Positions 7,591 to 24,476 of a stretch of 64,000 nt of DNA are shown here, piece after piece. Under the pieces are notes generated by a model that made no database searches, was not told the origin of the DNA, and saw nothing but the letters and a program-made list of their open reading frames with translations. The stretch comes from Pseudomonas tructae (GTDB lineage Bacteria > Pseudomonadota > Gammaproteobacteria > Pseudomonadales > Pseudomonadaceae), in contig NZ_CP035952.1 in the NCBI RefSeq assembly GCF_004214895.1, positions 3,110,501 through 3,174,500 on the forward strand. Reading direction: 5' to 3'. Positions within the stretch are counted from its first letter, which is position 1; each line of letters begins with the position of its first letter. The translations under genes and the position numbers were made by a program.

Positions 7591-8967
7591 TTGACTGAAT
7601 ATGGCGATGCCGCCACGGCGCTGCTGGCTGCCCGGGCTCAATTCGCCATCACCATCAGTTTTCATATTGTCCTGGCGGCGTTCAGCATTGGCCTGGCGCA
7701 GTGGCTGATGGCCTTGGAAGCGCTGTGGCTGTGGCGCCGTCAGGCCGTGCTGATGACCCTGTATCGCTATTGGCTGAAGGTCTTCGCCTTGACCGTTGCG
7801 GTCGGCGCCGCTTCTGGTTTGATCATGGAATACCAGTTCGGGCTCAACTGGTCAGGGCTTTCGCTGGCAGCGGGCGAGATCATCGGCCCTTTGATGCTCT
7901 ACGAAGTGCTGGTGGCGTTTTTCCTGGAGGCAGGCTTTCTCGGGGTGATGCTGTTCGGCTTGAAAAAGGTCGGGCCCAGGCTGCATTTTTTCGCGACTTG
8001 TGCGGTGGCGGTGGGGGCGTTGTTCAGCGCGTTCTGGATCATCAGCGCCAACTCCTGGATGCACACGCCTGCCGGCTATGCCATCGATGGCCAGGGGCGC
8101 TTCGTGGCCCAGGACTGGTGGGCGATCGTGTTCAATCCATCGTTTCCTTATCGCCTTTCGCACATGCTCCTGGCAGCCTTGCTCGGCACTGCGACGCTGG
8201 TGGCGGGGGTAGGGGGCTGGCAATTGCTGCGCGTACCGGGCAACCCGCGCGCGTGGCTGCAGTATTCGATGGCACTGTGGGCTATCGCTGTATTGGCGCC
8301 GCTGCAGATCGTCGTCGGTGACTTGCATGGCCAGCACACGCTGCAGGTGCAGCCGATCAAAGTAGCAGCCATCGAAGGCTCGTGGCAGCGCCCGCCGCCG
8401 GGCGCAGGGGAGCCCTTGCGGCTATTCGCCGTGCCGGACATGGCACAACAGCGCAACCATCTTGAACTGGCCATCCCGCGTGTGGGGTCGTTGTACCTGA
8501 CCCACGACCTGAGCGGTACCATACCGGCCCTCAATGAATTTCCCGCGCAAGATTTGCCGCCGGTGCCGTTGGTGTTCTACGCCTTTCGCATCATGGTCGG
8601 CCTGGGCCTGGTGATGCTGGCGCAAGGTATCGCCGGCCTGGTGCTGCGTTGGCGTGGACGTTTGCTGCAGGCCCAGTGGTTGCAACGCGCAAGCCTGGTA
8701 CTGGCACCCGCGGGCTTCGTCGCCATGCTCAGTGGCTGGGTGGTGACCGAAGTGGGGCGTCAGCCCTTCACCGTTTACGGCCTGCTGCGCACGGCCGACA
8801 GCGCATCGCCGGTGGCGGCGCAAACGGTGATAGCCAGCACTGTGGGCATCCTGCTGTTCTATATGTTGATATTCAGCCTGGGGCTGTGGCTGCTGTTGCG
8901 ACTGTTGCGTGAACCGCCGGGGGAAGAAGAACGCGGCCCGCAGCCCGAACTTGGCGGGGGGCGCTAA
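7591..8967 (+). CDS. Cytochrome bd-type quinol oxidase subunit I (short Q-loop, CioA-like)
   Basis: A 458-residue polytopic membrane protein of the CydA/CioA family, which oxidises quinol and reduces oxygen to water. AARAQFAITISFHIVLA at the N-terminus carries the conserved haem-ligand His (residue 25). The family run GWVVTEVGRQPFTVYGLLRT lies near the C-terminus. The extramembrane loop around residues 245-330 (GDLHGQHTLQVQPIKVAAIE) is short, as in the cyanide-insensitive CIO type. The start is TTG; no in-frame ATG is suitable. Subunit II follows within a few bases. A house-keeping cioAB is probably elsewhere, making this a divergent second copy. Confidence 0.9.
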   Translation: MTEYGDAATALLAARAQFAITISFHIVLAAFSIGLAQWLMALEALWLWRRQAVLMTLYRYWLKVFALTVAVGAASGLIMEYQFGLNWSGLSLAAGEIIGPLMLYEVLVAFFLEAGFLGVMLFGLKKVGPRLHFFATCAVAVGALFSAFWIISANSWMHTPAGYAIDGQGRFVAQDWWAIVFNPSFPYRLSHMLLAALLGTATLVAGVGGWQLLRVPGNPRAWLQYSMALWAIAVLAPLQIVVGDLHGQHTLQVQPIKVAAIEGSWQRPPPGAGEPLRLFAVPDMAQQRNHLELAIPRVGSLYLTHDLSGTIPALNEFPAQDLPPVPLVFYAFRIMVGLGLVMLAQGIAGLVLRWRGRLLQAQWLQRASLVLAPAGFVAMLSGWVVTEVGRQPFTVYGLLRTADSASPVAAQTVIASTVGILLFYMLIFSLGLWLLLRLLREPPGEEERGPQPELGGGR

Positions 8968-10797: not shown

Positions 10798-11655
10798 TCA
10801 GAGGATGGGTTTTCCTCCAGTTACGCCATAGCGAGAGCCGGAGATGTAGCTGGCTTCATCAGAACCGAGCAGAACGTAAATCGGAGCGACCTCAACCGGT
10901 TGTCCGGGCCGCCCCATTGGGTAGCCGGATCCGAATTTTTTGACGGCTTCATCGGGCATGGTAGCTGGGATCAGCGGTGTCCAGATCGGGCCGGGCGCCA
11001 CGCTGTTTACTCTTATTCCTTTTTTCCCCAGCAGTTGAGCGAGGCCTGCCGTGAAATTGGCAATGGCACCTTTGGTCGTCGCATAAGCCAGCAGAGTGGG
11101 CGATGGGTCATCGGAGTTCACCGAACTGGTGTTGATGATCGAACTGCCTTCGGGCATCGAGGCCAACGCCCGTTGGCAGATGCGGAAAATGGCGGTGATA
11201 TTGACGTCGAAGGTCATTACCCACTCGTCATCCGCGATCTCTTCGAGCGATTCATGGGCCATCTGGAACGCTGCATTGTTGACCAGGATGTCGATACGAC
11301 CGAACTTTTCAACGGTCTTATCGACGATGTCATAGCAATGCCGCTTCTCAGCCAAGTCACCAGGTAAAAGCAGACATTGTCGGCCTGCGGCTTCCACCCA
11401 GCGCGCGGTTTCCTGCGCATCTTCATGTTCATTGAGATAGGCAATGGCAACGTCTGCTCCCTCGCGGGCATAAGCAATGGCCACGGCACGCCCGATCCCG
11501 CTGTCGGCACCCGTAATCAGTGCGATCTTGCGCTCAAGCCGATTATGACCAACATAAGTTTCCTCGCCACAGTCAGGATAGGGCTCCATCTTGCGTTGGG
11601 AGCCTGGGACGCTTTGGGGTTGGGATGGGAAGGGAGGGGTAGGGTAGGTACGCAT
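10798..11655 (-). CDS. SDR-family oxidoreductase (YghA/YdaD type)
   Basis: ATG 11655 (MRTYPTPPFPSQPQSVPGSQ) has GGAGAG upstream and gives 285 residues, the usual size of the stress-induced YghA/YdaD (GSP39) subgroup with its Pro-rich N-terminal extension. The NAD(P)-binding motif is ITGADSGIGRAVA near residue 47; NNAA follows near 125; the catalytic Ser (NTSSVNS) and YATTK Tyr/Lys pair are present, then SVAPGPIWTPL. Cytoplasmic; substrate unknown. It lies 77 bases downstream of the PfpI-like gene on the same strand and is probably co-transcribed. Confidence 0.92.
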   Translation of the reverse strand: MRTYPTPPFPSQPQSVPGSQRKMEPYPDCGEETYVGHNRLERKIALITGADSGIGRAVAIAYAREGADVAIAYLNEHEDAQETARWVEAAGRQCLLLPGDLAEKRHCYDIVDKTVEKFGRIDILVNNAAFQMAHESLEEIADDEWVMTFDVNITAIFRICQRALASMPEGSSIINTSSVNSDDPSPTLLAYATTKGAIANFTAGLAQLLGKKGIRVNSVAPGPIWTPLIPATMPDEAVKKFGSGYPMGRPGQPVEVAPIYVLLGSDEASYISGSRYGVTGGKPIL

Positions 11656-11732
11656 GGTAGCTCTCCTGCAGTTGGGAAGGCTCATGTAGGTTTGACTCCG
11701 GGCCGGTAATACCCGACAAGGGGCCACCAGGC

Positions 11733-12272
11733 TCAACCCGTGAGCGCCCTGATCAACTGCTCATTGAAAGCAGGAATATCATCAGGCTGGCGACTGGTGA
11801 TCAGGTTGCCATCTACTACCACCTCTTCATCCACCCAATTTCCGCCGGCGTTGCGGATATCGTCCTGCAAGGTCTTGTAGCTGGTCATCCGCTTGCCCTT
11901 GGCCAAGCCACTCGACACCAGCAGCCAGGCGCCGTGACAGATTACTGCCAGCGGCTTGCCGGCTGCGTCATGGCTTTTGACCAGCTTTTGTGCGCCAGGG
12001 ATCAGTCGAATCGTGTCGGAGTTTTGCACGCCGCCGGGCAGTACCAAGGCATCGTAGAGATCGAAGTTGGCACTTTCGAAGGTTGCATCCACCGCAAATT
12101 CGTCGGCGGGTTTGTCATGATTCCAACCGCGCACCGTGCCATCTTTTGCACTCAGGATATCGACCACCGCGCCGCTCTGTTCCAGAGCCTCGCGAGGGCC
12201 GGTCAATTCCACCTGCTCAAAACCATCGGTAACCAGAAAGGCCACACGTTTACCATTCAATTGTGCACTCAT
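11733..12272 (-). CDS. DJ-1/PfpI family protein (YhbO-like)
   Basis: A 179-residue protein of the DJ-1/PfpI superfamily. It has the Glu-containing DGFEQVEL near residue 17, the ALVLPGG loop near 76 and the nucleophile elbow AVICHGAW with Cys112-His113. Members of the PfpI/YhbO branch are described as proteases or deglycases protecting against carbonyl and other stress; the precise activity is debated. It is upstream of the SDR gene and probably in one transcript with it, both being typical general-stress genes. Confidence 0.92.
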   Translation of the reverse strand: MSAQLNGKRVAFLVTDGFEQVELTGPREALEQSGAVVDILSAKDGTVRGWNHDKPADEFAVDATFESANFDLYDALVLPGGVQNSDTIRLIPGAQKLVKSHDAAGKPLAVICHGAWLLVSSGLAKGKRMTSYKTLQDDIRNAGGNWVDEEVVVDGNLITSRQPDDIPAFNEQLIRALTG

Positions 12273-14505: not shown

Positions 14506-15009
14506 TCATTCCTTCTGTCCATGTTTGGCCTGAAGCTGCTTGGCCTGTTCAAGGTGATGCTCAAGCTTGGGCAAAGCCTCGCTGGCAAACGCTTTGAGGT
14601 CAGCATTGTCGGACGAATTGGCTTCCTTCTTGAAAAGTGCCACTGCCTTTTCATGGGCATCGACCTGGTTGTTGAGGTACGAGCGGTCAAAGGACTCTTC
14701 GCGCCATTCCAATATCACACTCTTGGCCTTGTCGATCATCGCGGCTTCATCTGGAACGGTGATGTCATGCTTGCGTGCGATATCCCCCAGCTCCTGGTTT
14801 GCGCGTGTGTGATCGGTGACCATTTGTTGAGCGAATGCTGTGATATCGGGATTCTTGCTCTTTTCCTTGGCCAGATTGCCTGCCACGACTTCGGCAATAC
14901 CTGCTTCGGTGGCGGAATTGACGAAGTCGGATGAAGTTGACGCCAGAGCATGGGTCGAAGCCAGGCCCAGTACGATGGAAAAACCGAATCGCTTGAGGAA
15001 TGGATACAT
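14506..15009 (-). CDS. DUF4142 periplasmic protein
   Basis: The start at 15009 gives MYPFLKRFGFSIVLGLASTH with a signal peptide ending near ALA, then a mature all-helical domain of the DUF4142 (ferritin-like fold) family. Typical marks are FVNSATEAGIAEVVAGNLAK, DITAFAQQMVTDHTRANQEL and SYLNNQVDAHEKAVALFKKE. It is exported to the periplasm and is usually seen with osmotic or envelope stress genes; no activity is established. The segment upstream of 15009 in the same frame is not signal-peptide-like and was left out. Confidence 0.9.
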   Translation of the reverse strand: MYPFLKRFGFSIVLGLASTHALASTSSDFVNSATEAGIAEVVAGNLAKEKSKNPDITAFAQQMVTDHTRANQELGDIARKHDITVPDEAAMIDKAKSVILEWREESFDRSYLNNQVDAHEKAVALFKKEANSSDNADLKAFASEALPKLEHHLEQAKQLQAKHGQKE

Positions 15010-15193
15010 AGCTCGCTCCAAGGAAGGGGACGCGACGACAGCGTCGTTAAAGAATGGGATCTTTTCGATTGGCAAAGGTTTAATTTTTTCGACATCCAGA
15101 ACAATGGAACGATGACTGCGTGACAAGGCTCAGACCTTCAAAGAGACTTCGAAGGTTGACCCTTAAAGCGCTGACAAATGAGGCGTACAAACG

Positions 15194-15451
15194 GTGAGCG
15201 GTGACGTAGTGGATACGCTGATTGACCTGGTGCAATGGCCTGCCATGCTGCTGACGGTTGCAGCGGCATGGTGTATTGGTTCGCGGCAGGCTGGACGCCG
15301 CCGGATTGGCTTCTGCTGTTTCATCAGCAGCAACGTGTTGTGGGTAATTTGGGGGTGGCATACGCAGGCATGGGCGCTGGTAGTGCTGCAGTTCTGCCTA
15401 TGCTTTATGAACCTGCGTGGATGGAAGAAGAATACGCCTTCAGAGGGCTGA
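15194..15451 (+). CDS. Small membrane protein
   Basis: An 85-residue protein (GTG start at 15194) with three short hydrophobic segments: LVQWPAMLLTVAAAWCIG, IGFCCFISSNVLWVIWGW and ALVVLQFCLCFMNLRGW, then KKN. The pattern of Trp-rich short helices and a terminal NLRG-x-KK is like small inner membrane proteins common in Pseudomonas. Its last 12 bases overlap the end of the ligase gene on the other strand, so the two genes converge. Function unknown. Confidence 0.78.
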   Translation: MSGDVVDTLIDLVQWPAMLLTVAAAWCIGSRQAGRRRIGFCCFISSNVLWVIWGWHTQAWALVVLQFCLCFMNLRGWKKNTPSEG

Positions 15452-16543
15452 CATTGCACTGTGCGTAAGTTGCTCGTCTATGACATCGCATAGAGCGCGT
15501 TCCTGAGTCAGGCCTCGCGCCAACGCGCGGTCGTAGGTTGCTAACTGCACATCGGCGCTCGTGCCTGAGGTGAGGATGTGCAGGGCGTGATCGATGTGGT
15601 CGGGCGCTACAGCGAACTGGGTCTGCAACTGGAGCAGCCAGGCCTGAGCCGACAATGGCGCGTGCGAAAGCGGATCGATGAAACGTCCGTCACGTCCGTG
15701 GCGCATTGCACGCCAGAGGTTTTCCTGAGTAACCCATTGCATCTCACGTGTGAGCTGAACGTCCTCCGAGCGGGTCTCAAGGCAGTGGGTAACCATTTGG
15801 TGAAATAAGAGCGCGATGCACAGCCCGTCTGCTAGCCGCGGGCAACCATCGGCGATGCGCAATTCTACGGTCGGGTAGCGCCGTGAAGGCCGGATAGCCC
15901 ACCAACAATCAAACTCTGGTCGAGCCCCTGTGCGTTGCAGCAAATCGAGATAGTGTTCGTAGTCAGTCCAGTCGAGCAGACGCTCAGGCAGGCCCATTCG
16001 CGGCCATTCGTTGCACAACACACGACGGTAGCTGCGATAGCCAGTTAACTGCCCCTCCCAGAAAGGAGATGAGGTACTGAGTACCAGCAAAAGCGGCAGC
16101 CACGGCAATAGCTGATTGATAAGCCGTATTCGGTCATAACCTGGCGCAACTCCCACATGGATGTGCAGGCCACACACCAGACTCTGCCGAGCAACCTGCT
16201 GGTAATCCTCGAAGAGCTGGTGGTAGTGCTCGCCTGGCGCTGGCTGCTGGGCTTGCCAATTGCCCGAGGGATGGCTGCCGGCAGCGTAGATGCCAAGGCC
16301 ATAAGTGGCCAAGCTCGATGACAGGCGTTGGCGAGCGCTACATACAAAGTCTTGCGCTTGCAGCCAATCGCCAAAGACCGGAGACGCCACTTCGATCTGG
16401 GACTTGTACATTTCCTGAGAAAAGTATTGTCCAAGCGCCTCATGGCAAGCGGTGAGGGCTCCGGCGGCAGGCTCAGCGACTACCCGCCGACTATCCAGAT
16501 CGACCAGCAGGAATTCCTCCTCAATTCCGAACCCCGGCTTCAT
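15440..16543 (-). CDS. YbdK-type carboxylate-amine ligase (GCS2 family)
   Basis: A 367-residue member of the glutamate-cysteine ligase GCS2 family. The start MKPGFGIEEEFLLVDLDSRR holds the conserved EEEF metal site; SQEMYKSQIEVASP, LVCGLHIHVGVAPG and CWWAIRPSRRYPTVELRIAD are further family marks. Such enzymes make an amide bond at the expense of ATP between a carboxylate (often Glu) and an amine; the actual substrates of YbdK homologues are unknown. It overlaps the methyltransferase gene by 4 bases (ATGA), and is the last gene of a tight operon with a diiron oxidase-like enzyme. Confidence 0.9.
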   Translation of the reverse strand: MKPGFGIEEEFLLVDLDSRRVVAEPAAGALTACHEALGQYFSQEMYKSQIEVASPVFGDWLQAQDFVCSARQRLSSSLATYGLGIYAAGSHPSGNWQAQQPAPGEHYHQLFEDYQQVARQSLVCGLHIHVGVAPGYDRIRLINQLLPWLPLLLVLSTSSPFWEGQLTGYRSYRRVLCNEWPRMGLPERLLDWTDYEHYLDLLQRTGARPEFDCWWAIRPSRRYPTVELRIADGCPRLADGLCIALLFHQMVTHCLETRSEDVQLTREMQWVTQENLWRAMRHGRDGRFIDPLSHAPLSAQAWLLQLQTQFAVAPDHIDHALHILTSGTSADVQLATYDRALARGLTQERALCDVIDEQLTHSAMSAL

Positions 16544-17493
16544 TTGCGGCGAGTCACGCTGAGCGAAACGGCAGCAATGCGCTCAACGTATTGATAACCG
16601 GGTTCGAGCAACTGCTCACCAAATACGTCTGGATCTACCTCTTGGTAACTCCAGACCCATTCTGAGGACTGCAGCAGGCTTTTGACCGCGTTATAGAACG
16701 GATCTTGGCCGTCCACTATTGCAGACCCTGAATAGAGAAGCAGGGTACCTCCCGCCGCCAAGCGCTCTAGGGACTCTTCCACTATACGCAGGGCTAAACC
16801 TTCTCCCAGCGTGCCGCCTCCATGACGATAAGTGCGCTCTCCCGCATCGAGCATGTAGGGTGGGTTGCAGACAATCAGATCGAAGGTGCCAGTGATGCCG
16901 TGCAGCACATCACTGTGTTCTATCGAGACATTGGCTAACTCCGCCAGAGCGACATTGATGGCGGTATAGCGCAGCGCCAGATCGTTGATGTCGACTGCCG
17001 TTACCTGGGCGTGACGACGCGCGGTGGCAATCAGGATGGCCCCGATTCCGGTACCGCAGCCTATCTCGATCGCGTGGTTTATTTCACCTGCGTCTCGCTG
17101 CAAATGTGCCTGGATCACGTGAGCAAAGCGATAGCTGTCAGGCCCAAAGAACACCGCGTCGTGCGAAAGGGTGGGGTATCCGGAATGGAGAAATAGCCAA
17201 TCGCCCAGCGTTGAAAAGCGCACGGTGCTACGCAACTGGCTGCCGTGCTTGTCGAGGATATTGGCCAGCCACATCTGTTTCAATTCGTCAGGTGAAAGGT
17301 TGCCAGGAAAAAATGACCGGTTCCAGCCGAACACATCGCGCAAGCTGTGGCTCTGGTTCGCTGGTGTTCGCTCAAGGTTGCGCTGTTGAGTGACTGGGGT
17401 TACACAGGTAAACGTGTATCCATCAGCAATCAAGCGCCGTCCTAACTGAAGGAGGGCGCTGTCGGCCTGGAGTTGTTCGGCTGTCAGTTCCAT
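16540..17493 (-). CDS. Class I SAM-dependent methyltransferase with NPPY motif
   Basis: A 317-residue protein. The N-terminal 110 residues form a partner domain; the methyltransferase domain follows with AIEIGCGTGIGAILIATARR (SAM site, near residue 141), VDINDLALRYTAINV, and DLIVCNPPYMLD near 208. NPPY is characteristic of enzymes methylating a planar nitrogen (HemK/PrmC, N6-adenine or N5-glutamine types). The start codon overlaps the diiron-enzyme gene by 10 bases and the end overlaps the ligase gene by 4, so the three are surely co-translated. The target (small molecule, protein or nucleic acid) is unknown. Confidence 0.88.
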   Translation of the reverse strand: MELTAEQLQADSALLQLGRRLIADGYTFTCVTPVTQQRNLERTPANQSHSLRDVFGWNRSFFPGNLSPDELKQMWLANILDKHGSQLRSTVRFSTLGDWLFLHSGYPTLSHDAVFFGPDSYRFAHVIQAHLQRDAGEINHAIEIGCGTGIGAILIATARRHAQVTAVDINDLALRYTAINVALAELANVSIEHSDVLHGITGTFDLIVCNPPYMLDAGERTYRHGGGTLGEGLALRIVEESLERLAAGGTLLLYSGSAIVDGQDPFYNAVKSLLQSSEWVWSYQEVDPDVFGEQLLEPGYQYVERIAAVSLSVTRRK

Positions 17494-18794
17494 TCATGAC
17501 CTCCACTCAACCCGGTCAGCCGACCATAGCGCCGGGTCGCCGCTAAACCGTCTGGCAGGGCGTGACGCGCACCTGCCATGTGAGCGAGCAGGACATCCAG
17601 TGCGACCTCCGATCCGAGATTTTCGTCGAGTTGTTCGAAGACGCTCTCCTGAACAGTTTTGTAGGCGCGACGAGTCGCACACCAATCACCTGCAATCCAG
17701 TCGTGAAGTAACTGCCTTTCATAAGGGCTGAATACCCCGAACATCAGCGCCGTGGGCCCTTCGACGAGTCGCCAGAAGCGGCTGTTGGCAGGATCCTGGC
17801 CACGTTTAATCCAGCCCTTGCGTTGCAGCGCGTTGAAGAGTTCGCCCATGCGACCTGGCTCCGCGAGCCATTGATTCACCGTGCGACCTTCGAGGCGGCA
17901 GTAGTCCGAATGCATGCGACTGCCAAAGTTGCGTTTACGCTCGAAGGATTCCAGCAGTTGGGTTTCAAGATCGAAGCCAGCAGCGATATCGGCGGCGCCC
18001 AAGCCCAGGTCATTGAGCCGATAACCCCTGCTCACACGACGATAGAAATCCCCCTGATCCTTGTCGGGCCATAGCTGATGGAGCGCTTGCACGGCCTTAC
18101 ACGCATGCCCGGTACTGGCGTTGTCGATGGTCACATGAAGTCGGAAGTAGTGTGGGTCAATCCCCAGTTCCTCCAGCTCGAATGCGGTCACCAGCAAGTG
18201 CAACGGCAACTGCTCGTAACCCAGGTTGTAGCCGATCACTTCCGGAAGAAAGGCGTCCACGTTGTAGCCTAATGCCAGTTGCAGTGCCCCCTGCAAATAG
18301 CGCTCTTGCGTCAAAGGGATGAGCTCATGGCAGCCGAGGGTGGAAAGCAATCGCTGGTAGATCAGCACATGATTGCAGGCTGGGTTACCGTCGCCGAGTT
18401 CTTCAAGGTATATGCGGATCAGCCCATGGTAACGGGCGTCCTCCCAATGGCGCAGTGTGCCGAACAACCAAGCGCCGTCAACGTTTTTGGTCGGGGCGAC
18501 ATGTTGGAGGAAATAGAGGGCGTGCGCGCGATTACTAAAATACTGTCGAGGAGCACCTTGGCGACGTTTTTCGAGGTAGCCGGCATACTGGTGGGCTACA
18601 TTGGCGGCGCGTTGCGCAGTCCAATCGGCAATTCTCGTTGGATCGTCAGGAAGCTCATTTTCCAAACTGTCGGCTTGGCCGAGTTGCGTTTCGAGCCAAG
18701 AAGCGCTGCCCGAGGTGTCACCACGAAGCAGCGCATCGTAGCGAGTTTTCATGTTTTCTTTTTGCATTGAGAGGACTACGTCAGCGGCGCTCAT
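17484..18794 (-). CDS. Haem-oxygenase-like diiron (iron-containing redox) enzyme
   Basis: ATG 18794 follows GAGG by about eight bases and gives 436 residues. The central part has the haem-oxygenase-like diiron oxidase pattern: YLEELGDGNPACNHVLIYQR, then LEELGIDPHYFRLHVTIDN and ASTGHACKAVQ, where Glu, His, Asp and His residues fit the metal ligands. Known members of this fold carry out oxidative C-C cleavage, N-oxygenation and similar chemistry on amino acids or fatty acids. The C-terminal 150 residues lie outside that core. It is translationally coupled to a lipoprotein upstream and a methyltransferase downstream, suggesting a small biosynthetic or detoxification pathway. Confidence 0.85.
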   Translation of the reverse strand: MSAADVVLSMQKENMKTRYDALLRGDTSGSASWLETQLGQADSLENELPDDPTRIADWTAQRAANVAHQYAGYLEKRRQGAPRQYFSNRAHALYFLQHVAPTKNVDGAWLFGTLRHWEDARYHGLIRIYLEELGDGNPACNHVLIYQRLLSTLGCHELIPLTQERYLQGALQLALGYNVDAFLPEVIGYNLGYEQLPLHLLVTAFELEELGIDPHYFRLHVTIDNASTGHACKAVQALHQLWPDKDQGDFYRRVSRGYRLNDLGLGAADIAAGFDLETQLLESFERKRNFGSRMHSDYCRLEGRTVNQWLAEPGRMGELFNALQRKGWIKRGQDPANSRFWRLVEGPTALMFGVFSPYERQLLHDWIAGDWCATRRAYKTVQESVFEQLDENLGSEVALDVLLAHMAGARHALPDGLAATRRYGRLTGLSGGHEWN

Positions 18795-18942
18795 TCGCTT
18801 TTTCCTCATCGGTGCTGGGCTGCTGCATTTGCAGCGAGGATTTGCTGCGGTCAGTCTCTTGGTCGATGTGCTTGGGTTCATCGAAGCAGCCCTGCAGGAG
18901 CAGGAAGCTCAAACACAGCAGGGAAGGGCGACCGAATTTCAT
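18781..18942 (-). CDS. Small lipoprotein
   Basis: A 53-residue protein from ATG 18942: MKFGRPSLLCLSFLLLQGCF, a lipoprotein signal with lipobox LLQGC (Cys at residue 19), then a short charged tail (DEPKHIDQETDRSKSSLQMQ ...). The longer start at 18969 would spoil the signal. Its stop lies 14 bases inside the next gene, so it is coupled to the diiron-enzyme gene. It may serve as an envelope anchor or be an unrelated stress lipoprotein. Confidence 0.72.
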   Translation of the reverse strand: MKFGRPSLLCLSFLLLQGCFDEPKHIDQETDRSKSSLQMQQPSTDEEKANERR

Positions 18943-19049
18943 AGGATTCACCTCTTGGCCATTTGGCAAGCATGCGCGATATAGATAGAGGCAATGGTTC
19001 GCTGGTTGAAGTTCAGACTGATCAACTCAGTGGGTTACAGGGTCCATCG

Positions 19050-19433
19050 ATCAACTACGCCAGAAAGTTGCATAAGTGGATGCTGGCTCTGCGTGAGCTT
19101 GTGCCCGAGGGCTCGACCATGGTCAAGGCACTGGATTACAGCTTGAAACGCTGGGTAGCACTGACGCGCTACCTGGATCACGGTGGCGTTCCCATCGACA
19201 ACAATGCCGTGGAGAACCAGATCAGGCCATGGGCGCTCGGTAGGTCGAACTGGCTCTTCGCCGGATCGCTACGCAGTGGTAAACGAGCCGCGGCGATCAT
19301 GAGCCTGATCCAATCGGCGCGTATGAATGGGCATGATCCGTATGCCTATCTCAGAGATGTGCTGACCCGGCTGCCAACGCAGCGAGCCAGTGAGATCGGG
19401 CAATTGCTACCCAATCAATGGATGCCGGCCTGA
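19050..19433 (+). pseudogene. IS66-family transposase (TnpC), C-terminal fragment
   Basis: Reading in frame from about 19050, the sequence MVKALDYSLKRWVALTRYLD, VPIDNNAVENQIRPWALGRS, NWLFAGSLRSGKRAAAIMSL, and DPYAYLRDVLTRLPTQRA is the C-terminal end of IS66-type transposases, including the last catalytic Glu region (VENQIRP). The first 350 or so residues and the tnpA/tnpB genes are missing; an in-frame Met at 18963 only adds unrelated residues. It is a remnant, marking the left edge of a mosaic region. Confidence 0.88.
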
Positions 19434-22798: not shown

Positions 22799-24205
22799 TC
22801 AGTCGCTGCGACCCGGTTTTCTACGCTCCCATTCCTCATCACTCACAACGTTGGCGATCGTAGTCATCGAGGAGTAGACGTGAAACTCAGGGAGATGGCT
22901 CACAATCTGGTCATCCTCAAAGTAGTGGTGTGCGATCGACGGGAAGAGGCCCTCCGGCACTGGGTATAGGGCATTGGGGTTATGGAACATATTCATGCCT
23001 TCGGCCCAGGTTTCCCCGCAACTTTCGTTGACCTCATAAGCGAACATTTTAGGCATCGACGCGTTGGGGTCATGGTCGTGATAGGTGCCCATACGGAACA
23101 GCATGACGTGGTCGTCTCCAAAGCCCGCTTGCTTTCCCATCCGGTTGAACTTGGATATGGTGCCGCTTGCCGAGAACATGATTGCACTGATGTTCTCTGC
23201 GCCTTCCTGGAAGAAGAAGCCGGACGGAATTTCCTTGCTGCCTAGGATGTGCTTATCGATTTTCTGCGGGGTGATGATGAGTTTCCCTGACTCGTCATAA
23301 TGATGGTCATGATGCACACCGTAGAGGTAGTTGATCAGGGCTGTGGACGTCCAAAGCATCGACTGATTTTCGTGGAAATCCGCGATGGCTATTACCAGGG
23401 GCTTGCCAGCTACGTGCTCAAGCTCCCAATACTTCTTCTGCAGCTTGGAGAAAAGCGGGCTCCCGAACCTGATGGGCATTTCATCCCGTGTCTTTTCATT
23501 AATTTGCTCCGGTGTCATCTCAGGGATCTTGTCGAAGTCGAGCTCCGAAATTTGGCCCTTGCGCCCAACGATGGTTGCCTCGATCGCGACGGTGTGTCCG
23601 TATTTTTGAACGATGAAATCCGGTGCATAGTGGTCGCGGTCGAAGAATAGCCCTTCCTCCACGAGGTAGGCGTTCAGGTAGAGCTCCCACACCCTGGCAT
23701 CAAAGCCTGTGGTCTGGAATTGTTCGATGAAATTGCCGTCGATATCCACATAGTGAGGCATCATCTCCCGAATGATGCCCCTTGCCGCTGTATGGGAAGG
23801 TTGAGATGACAGGAGTCGAAAATAGGGGTGAAGCTTTTCTTCTGCTTTGATCGGGGTGAAGAGATCCATCACTTCACCGGTTTCATCGGCTTGTTCGAAA
23901 ACCGTCTGACCGCTCAGTGTCACAGCCGTAATGCCATCTACAAGCCAGCCCTGAGCTTGTTGAGGCGTTTGCATCGAAACCTTTTGGTCGAAGCAGCGAT
24001 AGCGGCCAACGGCATCTCTCCCAAGCAAGATAGCTGTGAAATCCTTGTCGAAGAAATCAATCAGAAGCACGCCTAGGACAGTTTCGTCCTCATTGGAGAA
24101 CCACCCAATTTCCCTGGTGAAAAGCTCAGTCATCGGGCTACGAGACTGCCCGATGAGGGCCGAAAAGCGCTTCAAGTCCATTTTCTTGATTACTACACTC
24201 GTCAT
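22799..24205 (-). CDS. Large uncharacterised protein with restriction-endonuclease-like segment
   Basis: ATG 24205 (MTSVVIKKMDLKRFSALIGQ, GGAG upstream) gives 468 residues. The middle part, VWELYLNAYLVEEGLFFDRD, HYAPDFIVQKYGHTVAIEAT, resembles the core of PD-(D/E)XK nuclease-fold proteins: an aromatic ELYL helix, then the PD strand, then an E-A-T strand in place of ExK. Homologues are, as I recall, annotated only as 'glycosaminoglycan attachment site', which has no functional meaning. The C-terminal half has a compact His/Asp-rich section (YGVHHDHHYDES). Soluble. A DNA-acting or defence role is inferred from the fold signature and from two more nuclease-fold genes nearby. Confidence 0.7.
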   Translation of the reverse strand: MTSVVIKKMDLKRFSALIGQSRSPMTELFTREIGWFSNEDETVLGVLLIDFFDKDFTAILLGRDAVGRYRCFDQKVSMQTPQQAQGWLVDGITAVTLSGQTVFEQADETGEVMDLFTPIKAEEKLHPYFRLLSSQPSHTAARGIIREMMPHYVDIDGNFIEQFQTTGFDARVWELYLNAYLVEEGLFFDRDHYAPDFIVQKYGHTVAIEATIVGRKGQISELDFDKIPEMTPEQINEKTRDEMPIRFGSPLFSKLQKKYWELEHVAGKPLVIAIADFHENQSMLWTSTALINYLYGVHHDHHYDESGKLIITPQKIDKHILGSKEIPSGFFFQEGAENISAIMFSASGTISKFNRMGKQAGFGDDHVMLFRMGTYHDHDPNASMPKMFAYEVNESCGETWAEGMNMFHNPNALYPVPEGLFPSIAHHYFEDDQIVSHLPEFHVYSSMTTIANVVSDEEWERRKPGRSD

Positions 24206-24308
24206 ACGCTTCTCCACGTTAAGTGATGCGAAACCGTTTGCAGGATGAGTAGGATCACCTGGCGGCGCCAAGGAAAGGTAGCTCTGGGGAGGAGTACAGT
24301 GACAATCA

Positions 24309-24476
24309 TCAGCCTTCAGGCGACGGGTCTGATTCTCGCATGGCCTCCAAGAGCGCCTGCAGTCCATCTAGCAGCCGCTGATCCTCACGGGGGTCGCCTG
24401 TGTCCGGGCGGAACGTCAGGCAATGCCGCATCAGGGCATCGAAATCATTGCGGTTGAGGTCAAACTCAATAAACAT
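24309..24476 (-). CDS. Small acidic hypothetical protein
   Basis: A 55-residue protein, MFIEFDLNRNDFDALMRHCL then TFRPDTGDPREDQRLLDGLQ and ALLEAMRESDPSPEG, from ATG 24476 behind a clear GGAGGG. It is acidic and helical, with no recognised domain. It is 103 bases upstream of the large nuclease-like gene on the same strand and probably shares its transcript. Its strong ribosome site and good codon use argue for a real gene. Confidence 0.65.
   Translation of the reverse strand: MFIEFDLNRNDFDALMRHCLTFRPDTGDPREDQRLLDGLQALLEAMRESDPSPEG

Follow-up and report, generated by a model that had tools for sequence, protein, structure and literature searches.

DtpC of Acinetobacter baumannii, described in 2026, is a haem-oxygenase-like diiron protein (HDO) that acts as a desiccation and oxidative-stress factor (PMC13232832). 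According to the accessible text of that report, dtpC is co-transcribed with katE, cells require its product, in redundancy with KatE, to survive drying, the substitutions E143A, H153A, and H232A abolish function, and an iron chelator raised the drying survival of dtpC mutants. Its authors left iron sequestration, scavenging of radicals or reactive oxygen species (ROS), and small-molecule biosynthesis all open, and the same text states that no other HDO had previously been tied to oxidative stress or desiccation tolerance (PMC13232832). Here we examine an HDO from Pseudomonas tructae that resembles DtpC. It is encoded in a 64,000-nucleotide stretch of DNA (NZ_CP035952.1, positions 3,110,501 to 3,174,500; hereafter the window, whose own numbering is used below), in a compact operon with a small lipoprotein, a methyltransferase (MT), and a YbdK-type ligase.

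In the Pseudomonas mangotoxin system MboABCD, too, an HDO works together with amino acid ligases, but it differs from this operon in that the ligases are of the ATP-grasp type, MboB serves as a redox partner, and a toxin is made; a methyltransferase is nowhere mentioned in the text (PMC13185094). Searches of the open-licence literature listed no paper that describes this gene set in its title or abstract. The parts are of known kinds, whereas their combination and the link to stress appear to be new. The best overall explanation, to which we give somewhat better than an even chance from the sequence evidence, is that the operon encodes a short biosynthetic pathway for a small stress protectant.

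Results

Relation of the operon to the DtpC locus

The reading frames of the window confirm an operon of four mutually overlapping minus-strand genes at 15440-18942:

18780..18942, minus strand: small lipoprotein, 53 amino acids, first gene (frame and translation)
17484..18794, minus strand: DtpC-like haem-oxygenase-like diiron protein (HDO), 436 amino acids (PF14518)
16540..17493, minus strand: class I methyltransferase (MT) with NPPY motif, 317 amino acids (PF05175; fold like AerE and gentamicin N-methyltransferase)
15440..16543, minus strand: YbdK/GCS2-type carboxylate-amine ligase, 367 amino acids (PF04107, TIGR02050, NF010039)

An earlier sequence-only reading of the window had named a lipoprotein, an HDO, an NPPY methyltransferase, and a GCS2-type ligase; all four frames are present and profiles confirm the families of the last three. 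It gave the overlaps as 14, 10, and 4 bases, of which the last two are right and the first is 15 when stop codons are counted. The HDO starts at an ATG preceded by GAGG, yielding 436 amino acids, as in the database entry for the same genome; an alternative, longer frame from 18881 would yield 465.

The sequence comparison makes it almost certain that the window HDO and DtpC are homologous. In tblastn they are 38% identical across 90% of the query, in the alignment the identity is 37%, and E132, H142, and H220 of the window protein align with E143, H153, and H232 of DtpC. The dtpC records were found by tblastn of a plasmid collection that holds chromosome-sized A. baumannii records (14 of the 30 matching records are Acinetobacter, three of the 14 being chromosome-sized A. 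baumannii); a 16S-type pattern for Acinetobacter matched 0 of 194 genomes of the order sample, and taxonomy puts Acinetobacter in Moraxellales. In the A. baumannii locus L206, an open reading frame (ORF) from the ATG at 8872 has E143, H153, and H232 at exactly the published numbers, and dtpC ends 54 bp before the catalase gene, in agreement with the available text of PMC13232832. SDR, CinA, and KGG genes adjoin dtpC-katE in this locus. KGG repeats also lie upstream in 10 of 80 loci from GTDB, a set made up of the best 80 loci of named genomes, and SDR and CinA genes are found near some Pseudomonas loci as well. The likeness to the dtpC locus thus comprises a homologous HDO, conservation of the three mutated residues, and nearby KGG-, SDR-, and CinA-type genes; the difference is that katE follows dtpC directly, whereas MT directly follows the window HDO. 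We regard the operon as the pseudomonad form of a DtpC-type stress locus.

DtpC-like genes also occur on Acinetobacter plasmids; one such locus (L207, 1550-7278, NZ_CP083948.1) lies near catalase, DUF421, and trehalose-6-phosphate synthase genes.

Conservation of the gene set

Among 149 genomes of the genus, the window's own included, 92 have a strong HDO match and exactly those 92 have a full-length MT, which lies directly downstream of the HDO in every case (the match ends lie -6 to 339 bases apart); in the other 57, MT matches are only partial and weak. Two further genomes with weak HDO matches (G079 and G083, E ~1e-8) were left out and would bring the count to 94. The ligase occurs in 45 of the 149 genomes, all of them HDO-positive (Fisher p 1.7e-12, phylogeny ignored). 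It is placed downstream of MT in 28 of these, divergently upstream of the HDO in 8, convergently after MT in 1, and elsewhere in the genome in 8. The plant-associated laboratory strain P. capeferrum WCS358 (L161) has HDO, MT, and ligase.

The same pairing is seen in the GTDB set, where MT is near the HDO in 75 of the 80 loci. Its orientation has changed in 3 of the 75, namely Pusillimonas L141 and L204 and a metagenome-assembled genome labelled Abditibacterium (L162). MT also lies nearby at 8 of 12 more HDO loci outside the genus. HDO and MT distances are correlated over 75 loci (Mantel r 0.85, shared ancestry not removed). Beyond the family the HDO is sparse, with matches in 10 of 194 genomes of the order, 8 of 369 of the class, and 21 of 398 of the phylum, counts that include weak matches and some members of the genus or family.

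The association of HDO, MT, and ligase is beyond chance. Its core unit is the HDO-MT pair, often joined by the ligase, while the lipoprotein is a clade-specific addition. Co-occurrence in other Pseudomonas, which the sequence-only reading had put forward as a check, is therefore borne out for the pair; its picture of four genes as one set gives way to a looser one, with the ligase in 45 of 149 genomes and the lipoprotein at 15 of 80 GTDB loci.

Family and fold of the HDO

The HDO scores 93.7 bits against PF14518 (cut-off 28.9), matches the Haem_oxygenas_2 profile, and has the haem-oxygenase helical fold; its AlphaFold2 model has a mean predicted local distance difference test score (pLDDT) of 89.3. 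The solved folds nearest to this model, at 12-15% identity, are the N-oxygenases RohS (azomycin), HrmI (lysine), and SznF (streptozotocin). When the single HDO sequence was searched against the PDB, nothing matched up to E 1; the HDO profile retrieved RohS (E 1.3) and, in the C-terminal part, two weak MarR-like matches at profile positions ~301-360 (E 0.13 and E 0.23).

The candidate metal ligands E132, H142, E185, H220, D224, and H230 are invariant across 39 alignment rows (31 of the 80 GTDB loci, seven database proteins, and the window; L205 was left out for a stop codon in the translated stretch). The metal-ligand pattern that had been picked out from the window sequence thus recurs in alignments, and neither of the two refuting conditions named in the sequence-only reading brings its pathway idea down. 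Relative to RohS, HrmI, and SznF, the window protein has an extra C-terminal part of ~145 residues (residues 291-436, window 17484-17924), with conserved W328, F340, MFGV, and DWI. The model is mostly helical over residues 306-427, and no cupin match was found in the HDO (Pfam up to E 0.1), unlike SznF with its C-terminal cupin domain.

Several other HDO-like sequences came to light. A second copy in the L116 genome (L117, 8123-9601) has N, Q, and S at the equivalents of E132, H142, and H230, and probably lacks the diiron site. Distant relatives (L071-L075 and L121-L125) sit mostly in open frames of ~710-820 amino acids; L071, L074, L121, and L124 each resemble the HDO in two stretches, of which one reaches its C-terminal part. 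The host genome holds three more PF14518 matches (G000:C1:2431490-2431972, 4470483-4470968, and 462458-462916).

Methyltransferase, ligase, and lipoprotein

MT scores 59.5 bits against PF05175 (cut-off 23), and its model matches natural-product N-methyltransferase folds over its whole length, N-terminal domain included. AerE aligns over 300 residues to positions 7-317 of the model and the gentamicin N-methyltransferase over 268 residues to positions 6-317, at 17-19% identity; AerE is the aeronamide N-methyltransferase, and the gentamicin enzyme is GenN. G145/G147/G149 and N210-P-P-Y213, the S-adenosylmethionine motif and the NPPY-type catalytic motif, are invariant across 32 alignment rows (26 of the 80 GTDB loci, five database proteins, and the window; L162 was left out for a stop codon in the translated stretch). 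L205 and L162 are still counted among the 80 GTDB loci above.

Two other identities for MT were considered and rejected. As a housekeeping glutamine methyltransferase it falls far short of the NCBIfam cut-offs, with 55.8 bits against 229.7 for the L3 type and 67.2 against 199.1 for the release-factor type. The name "50S ribosomal protein L3 glutamine methyltransferase", under which relatives of MT appear in public records (P0131, P0143, P0158, and others), is not supported by the family score of the window MT. As for phage defence, eight PADLOC models matched MT, all of a general methyltransferase type (the best, mads_2, at 72 bits over part of the model), and PADLOC gave no match for the HDO or the ligase.

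The ligase scores 201.3 bits against PF04107 (cut-off 21) and lies above the cut-offs of two curated models, NF010039 (401.6 against 371) and TIGR02050 (321.6 against 176.4), by which it belongs to the YbdK family, with a predicted activity of ATP-dependent amide formation. FGIEEE and many other residues are invariant across 14 rows, and its relative in the PDB is YbdK itself (1r8g). It differs from YbdK in being genomically tied to an HDO and an N-methyltransferase, a link that we did not find described in searches of the open-licence literature.

The lipoprotein has a lipobox-like LLLQGC, judged by eye; neither Pfam nor NCBIfam has a model that matches it at E 0.1 or better. In a motif search, GCF...SKPSLQMQ was found upstream of the HDO in 15 of the 80 GTDB loci and in 4 of 52 other loci. 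This gene appears to be a clade-specific extra first gene and the weakest part of the association.

Genomic surroundings

Further features of the window lie on either side of the operon:

14506..15126, minus strand: DUF4142 gene, a neighbour in stress-type surroundings (PF13628, 144.2 bits)
10798..12272, minus strand: SDR and DJ-1/PfpI genes of the same neighbourhood (Pfam)
19009..19014, minus strand: putative GAACTT element of the AlgU -35 type, 66 bases before the lipoprotein start codon (weak)

By Pfam, the same-strand genes downstream of the operon are DUF4142, an Na/H exchanger, NUDIX, DJ-1/PfpI, and SDR. We counted neighbours within 6 kb of the HDO at 106 dereplicated loci, drawn from 132 with repeated contigs; ORF picking in this set misses some MT genes (MT called at 80 of 106), and the MT counts given here are those of the genus and GTDB sets. 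In this descriptive count, 72 of the 106 loci have at least one of eight families that we assume to be stress-type: SDR (20), Zn-alcohol dehydrogenase (17), Ku (16), LigD (15), hemerythrin (11), and DUF4142, Mn-catalase, and CinA (10 each). Ku has one match in the 5.69-Mb, single-contig host genome, and would be expected within 6 kb by chance at ~0.3%. In a control, 1 of 10 loci around distant HDO relatives has any of the eight families.

The putative GAACTT element agrees with the AlgU-type -35 consensus. The sequence CTGAACTTC at 19008-19016 is also present in L196, L137, and L180, and its occurrence once per 64 kb is unremarkable. Of 119 dereplicated loci, 8 have GAACTT-N15-18-TC upstream; random windows gave a mean of 1.6, but the highest count in 200 random draws was 8 as well. 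Such a promoter element is suggested in the relatives of the window but is not clearly above random.

Just upstream of the operon, at 18963-19433, lies a C-terminal remnant of an IS66 transposase (Pfam), and blastn similarity between the window and its relative L196 stops at the lipoprotein start codon. Elsewhere in the window, an open frame of 522 amino acids at 22799-24367 has no Pfam match.

Discussion

The coupling of the HDO to an N-methyltransferase-type MT, and often to a ligase, favours the small-molecule option among the mechanisms considered for DtpC, and we lean slightly towards a single small-molecule pathway served by all three enzymes. In the proposed route, the diiron site of the HDO would activate O2 and oxidise an amino-acid-like substrate at a nitrogen or at a carbon next to it, and MT would methylate this molecule on a nitrogen, either ahead of the oxidation or following it. 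Methylation before oxidation has a precedent in SznF, which N-oxygenates N-methyl-arginine in streptozotocin formation, according to the accessible text of PMC13108848. YbdK, where present, would join the carboxylate or amine of the molecule to a second unit as an amide, and the lipoprotein may be an accessory envelope factor. The product could be a small iron chelator, or a quencher of radicals or peroxide, that guards cells against oxidative damage while they dry or are in stationary phase. Iron chelation or radical quenching could be expected of an N-hydroxylated product, in keeping with the observation that an iron chelator helped dtpC mutants survive drying.

Thus, the oxidation, methylation, and amide formation on a small molecule proposed in the sequence-only reading stay the best reading, with the methylation now placed on nitrogen, and the modelled folds of HDO and MT strengthen it. 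The likely role, in turn, moves from secondary metabolism to stress protection, given an HDO that is related to DtpC and often lies among stress-type genes. The parts of this proposal are not equally firm: stress protection is the reasonably likely role of the pathway, N-oxygenation as the HDO step falls a little short of an even chance, and the substrate as an amino acid or glutamate derivative is a guess.

Several observations weigh against this proposal. N-oxygenation is read from the fold ranking, and a modelled fold shared with N-oxygenases is no proof of function. Foldseek alone gave no PDB match for the HDO at E <= 0.001. The last ligand spacing of the HDO, D224-x5-H230, differs from the H-x3-D-x2-H of SznF. 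AerE binds a peptide, to judge by PDB titles, and its fold is no proof of a small MT substrate. The ligase is missing from 47 of the 92 HDO-positive genomes of the genus. MT was not found near the HDO in 5 of the 80 GTDB loci, four of them Massilia/Oxalobacteraceae (the contig of one of these, L157, is just 6995 bases long) and the fifth P. saudimassiliensis, nor near 4 of the 12 loci outside the genus. None of the eight stress-type families is near the HDO in 34 of the 106 loci, these families were picked after the neighbourhoods had been inspected, and the control comprises only 10 loci. No catalase adjoins the HDO in the window. In the one A. baumannii record searched, no MT homologue of full length was found, the best match reaching 57.7 bits and covering part of the profile, and there was no ligase match, the latter in a search that had no positive control. 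DtpC protects A. baumannii all the same, and such an MT therefore seems dispensable for what DtpC itself does; a DtpC probably works in the absence of MT and ligase, through a simpler product or another mechanism. Finally, the accessible texts of the papers that we found on DtpC give no proven metabolite for it.

In one alternative the HDO protects alone: it would bind free iron, or its diiron site would slowly use up peroxide or superoxide, and MT and ligase would serve other tasks and share only its stress regulon. Besides the A. baumannii record and the Massilia/Oxalobacteraceae loci without a nearby MT, it can draw on iron sequestration and ROS scavenging being among the options of the DtpC authors in the available text (PMC13232832). 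We nevertheless consider it rather improbable. MT is present in, and adjacent to the HDO in, all 92 HDO-positive genomes of the genus, with only partial, weak matches in the other 57, the pair is kept despite changes of orientation, and characterised HDOs mostly act on amino or fatty acids, as the accessible part of PMC13108848 reports.

A secondary-metabolite pathway, yielding a toxin, signal, or antimetabolite in the manner of the mangotoxin, azomycin, and fluopsin C clusters of Pseudomonas, is unlikely. The nearest folds are indeed those of natural-product HDOs and natural-product methyltransferases, mangotoxin synthesis relies on an HDO and amino acid ligases (PMC13185094, accessible text), and transporter-like neighbours were seen by eye (permease-like near 11 of 132 loci, MFS-like near 7 of 132). 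Against it stand the wide presence in the genus (92 of 149), the stress-type neighbourhoods, the action of the homologous DtpC in stress survival (PMC13232832, accessible text), and the 45 neighbour families listed, among which we saw by eye no nonribosomal peptide synthetase or polyketide synthase.

It is very unlikely that the genes form a protein-modifying module in which MT methylates a Gln or Asn side chain of a protein, perhaps the HDO, the latter being modified or self-sacrificing like CADD (PMC13108848, accessible text). AerE and HemK/PrmC, close MT folds, do act on peptide or protein according to PDB titles, and some MT relatives carry the L3 label in public records, but the gentamicin N-methyltransferase, whose fold is nearly as similar, has an aminoglycoside as its substrate, MT is far below the cut-offs for both glutamine methyltransferase types, and the ligase partner would be left unexplained. 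An ergothioneine-like pathway, a route in which a GCS2 ligase, an iron enzyme, and a methyltransferase likewise take part, was rejected, as the iron enzyme here is an HDO and MT is of the NPPY type.

We return to the pathway for a small protectant. In its widest form, which we put forward tentatively, the stress response of Pseudomonas would include a new N-oxygenated, N-methylated, and often amide-capped molecule, DtpC-type HDOs in general would make its core, and the molecule rather than the protein would protect drying cells from iron-driven oxidative damage. A DtpC homologue locked to an N-methyltransferase, and often to an amide ligase, makes the small-molecule option testable in soil and plant bacteria, where the product should be traceable through its dependence on the MT and ligase genes. 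If true, such a protectant would help to explain how bacteria persist on leaves and other surfaces that dry out, and HDOs, so far familiar chiefly from natural-product pathways, would gain a role in stress.

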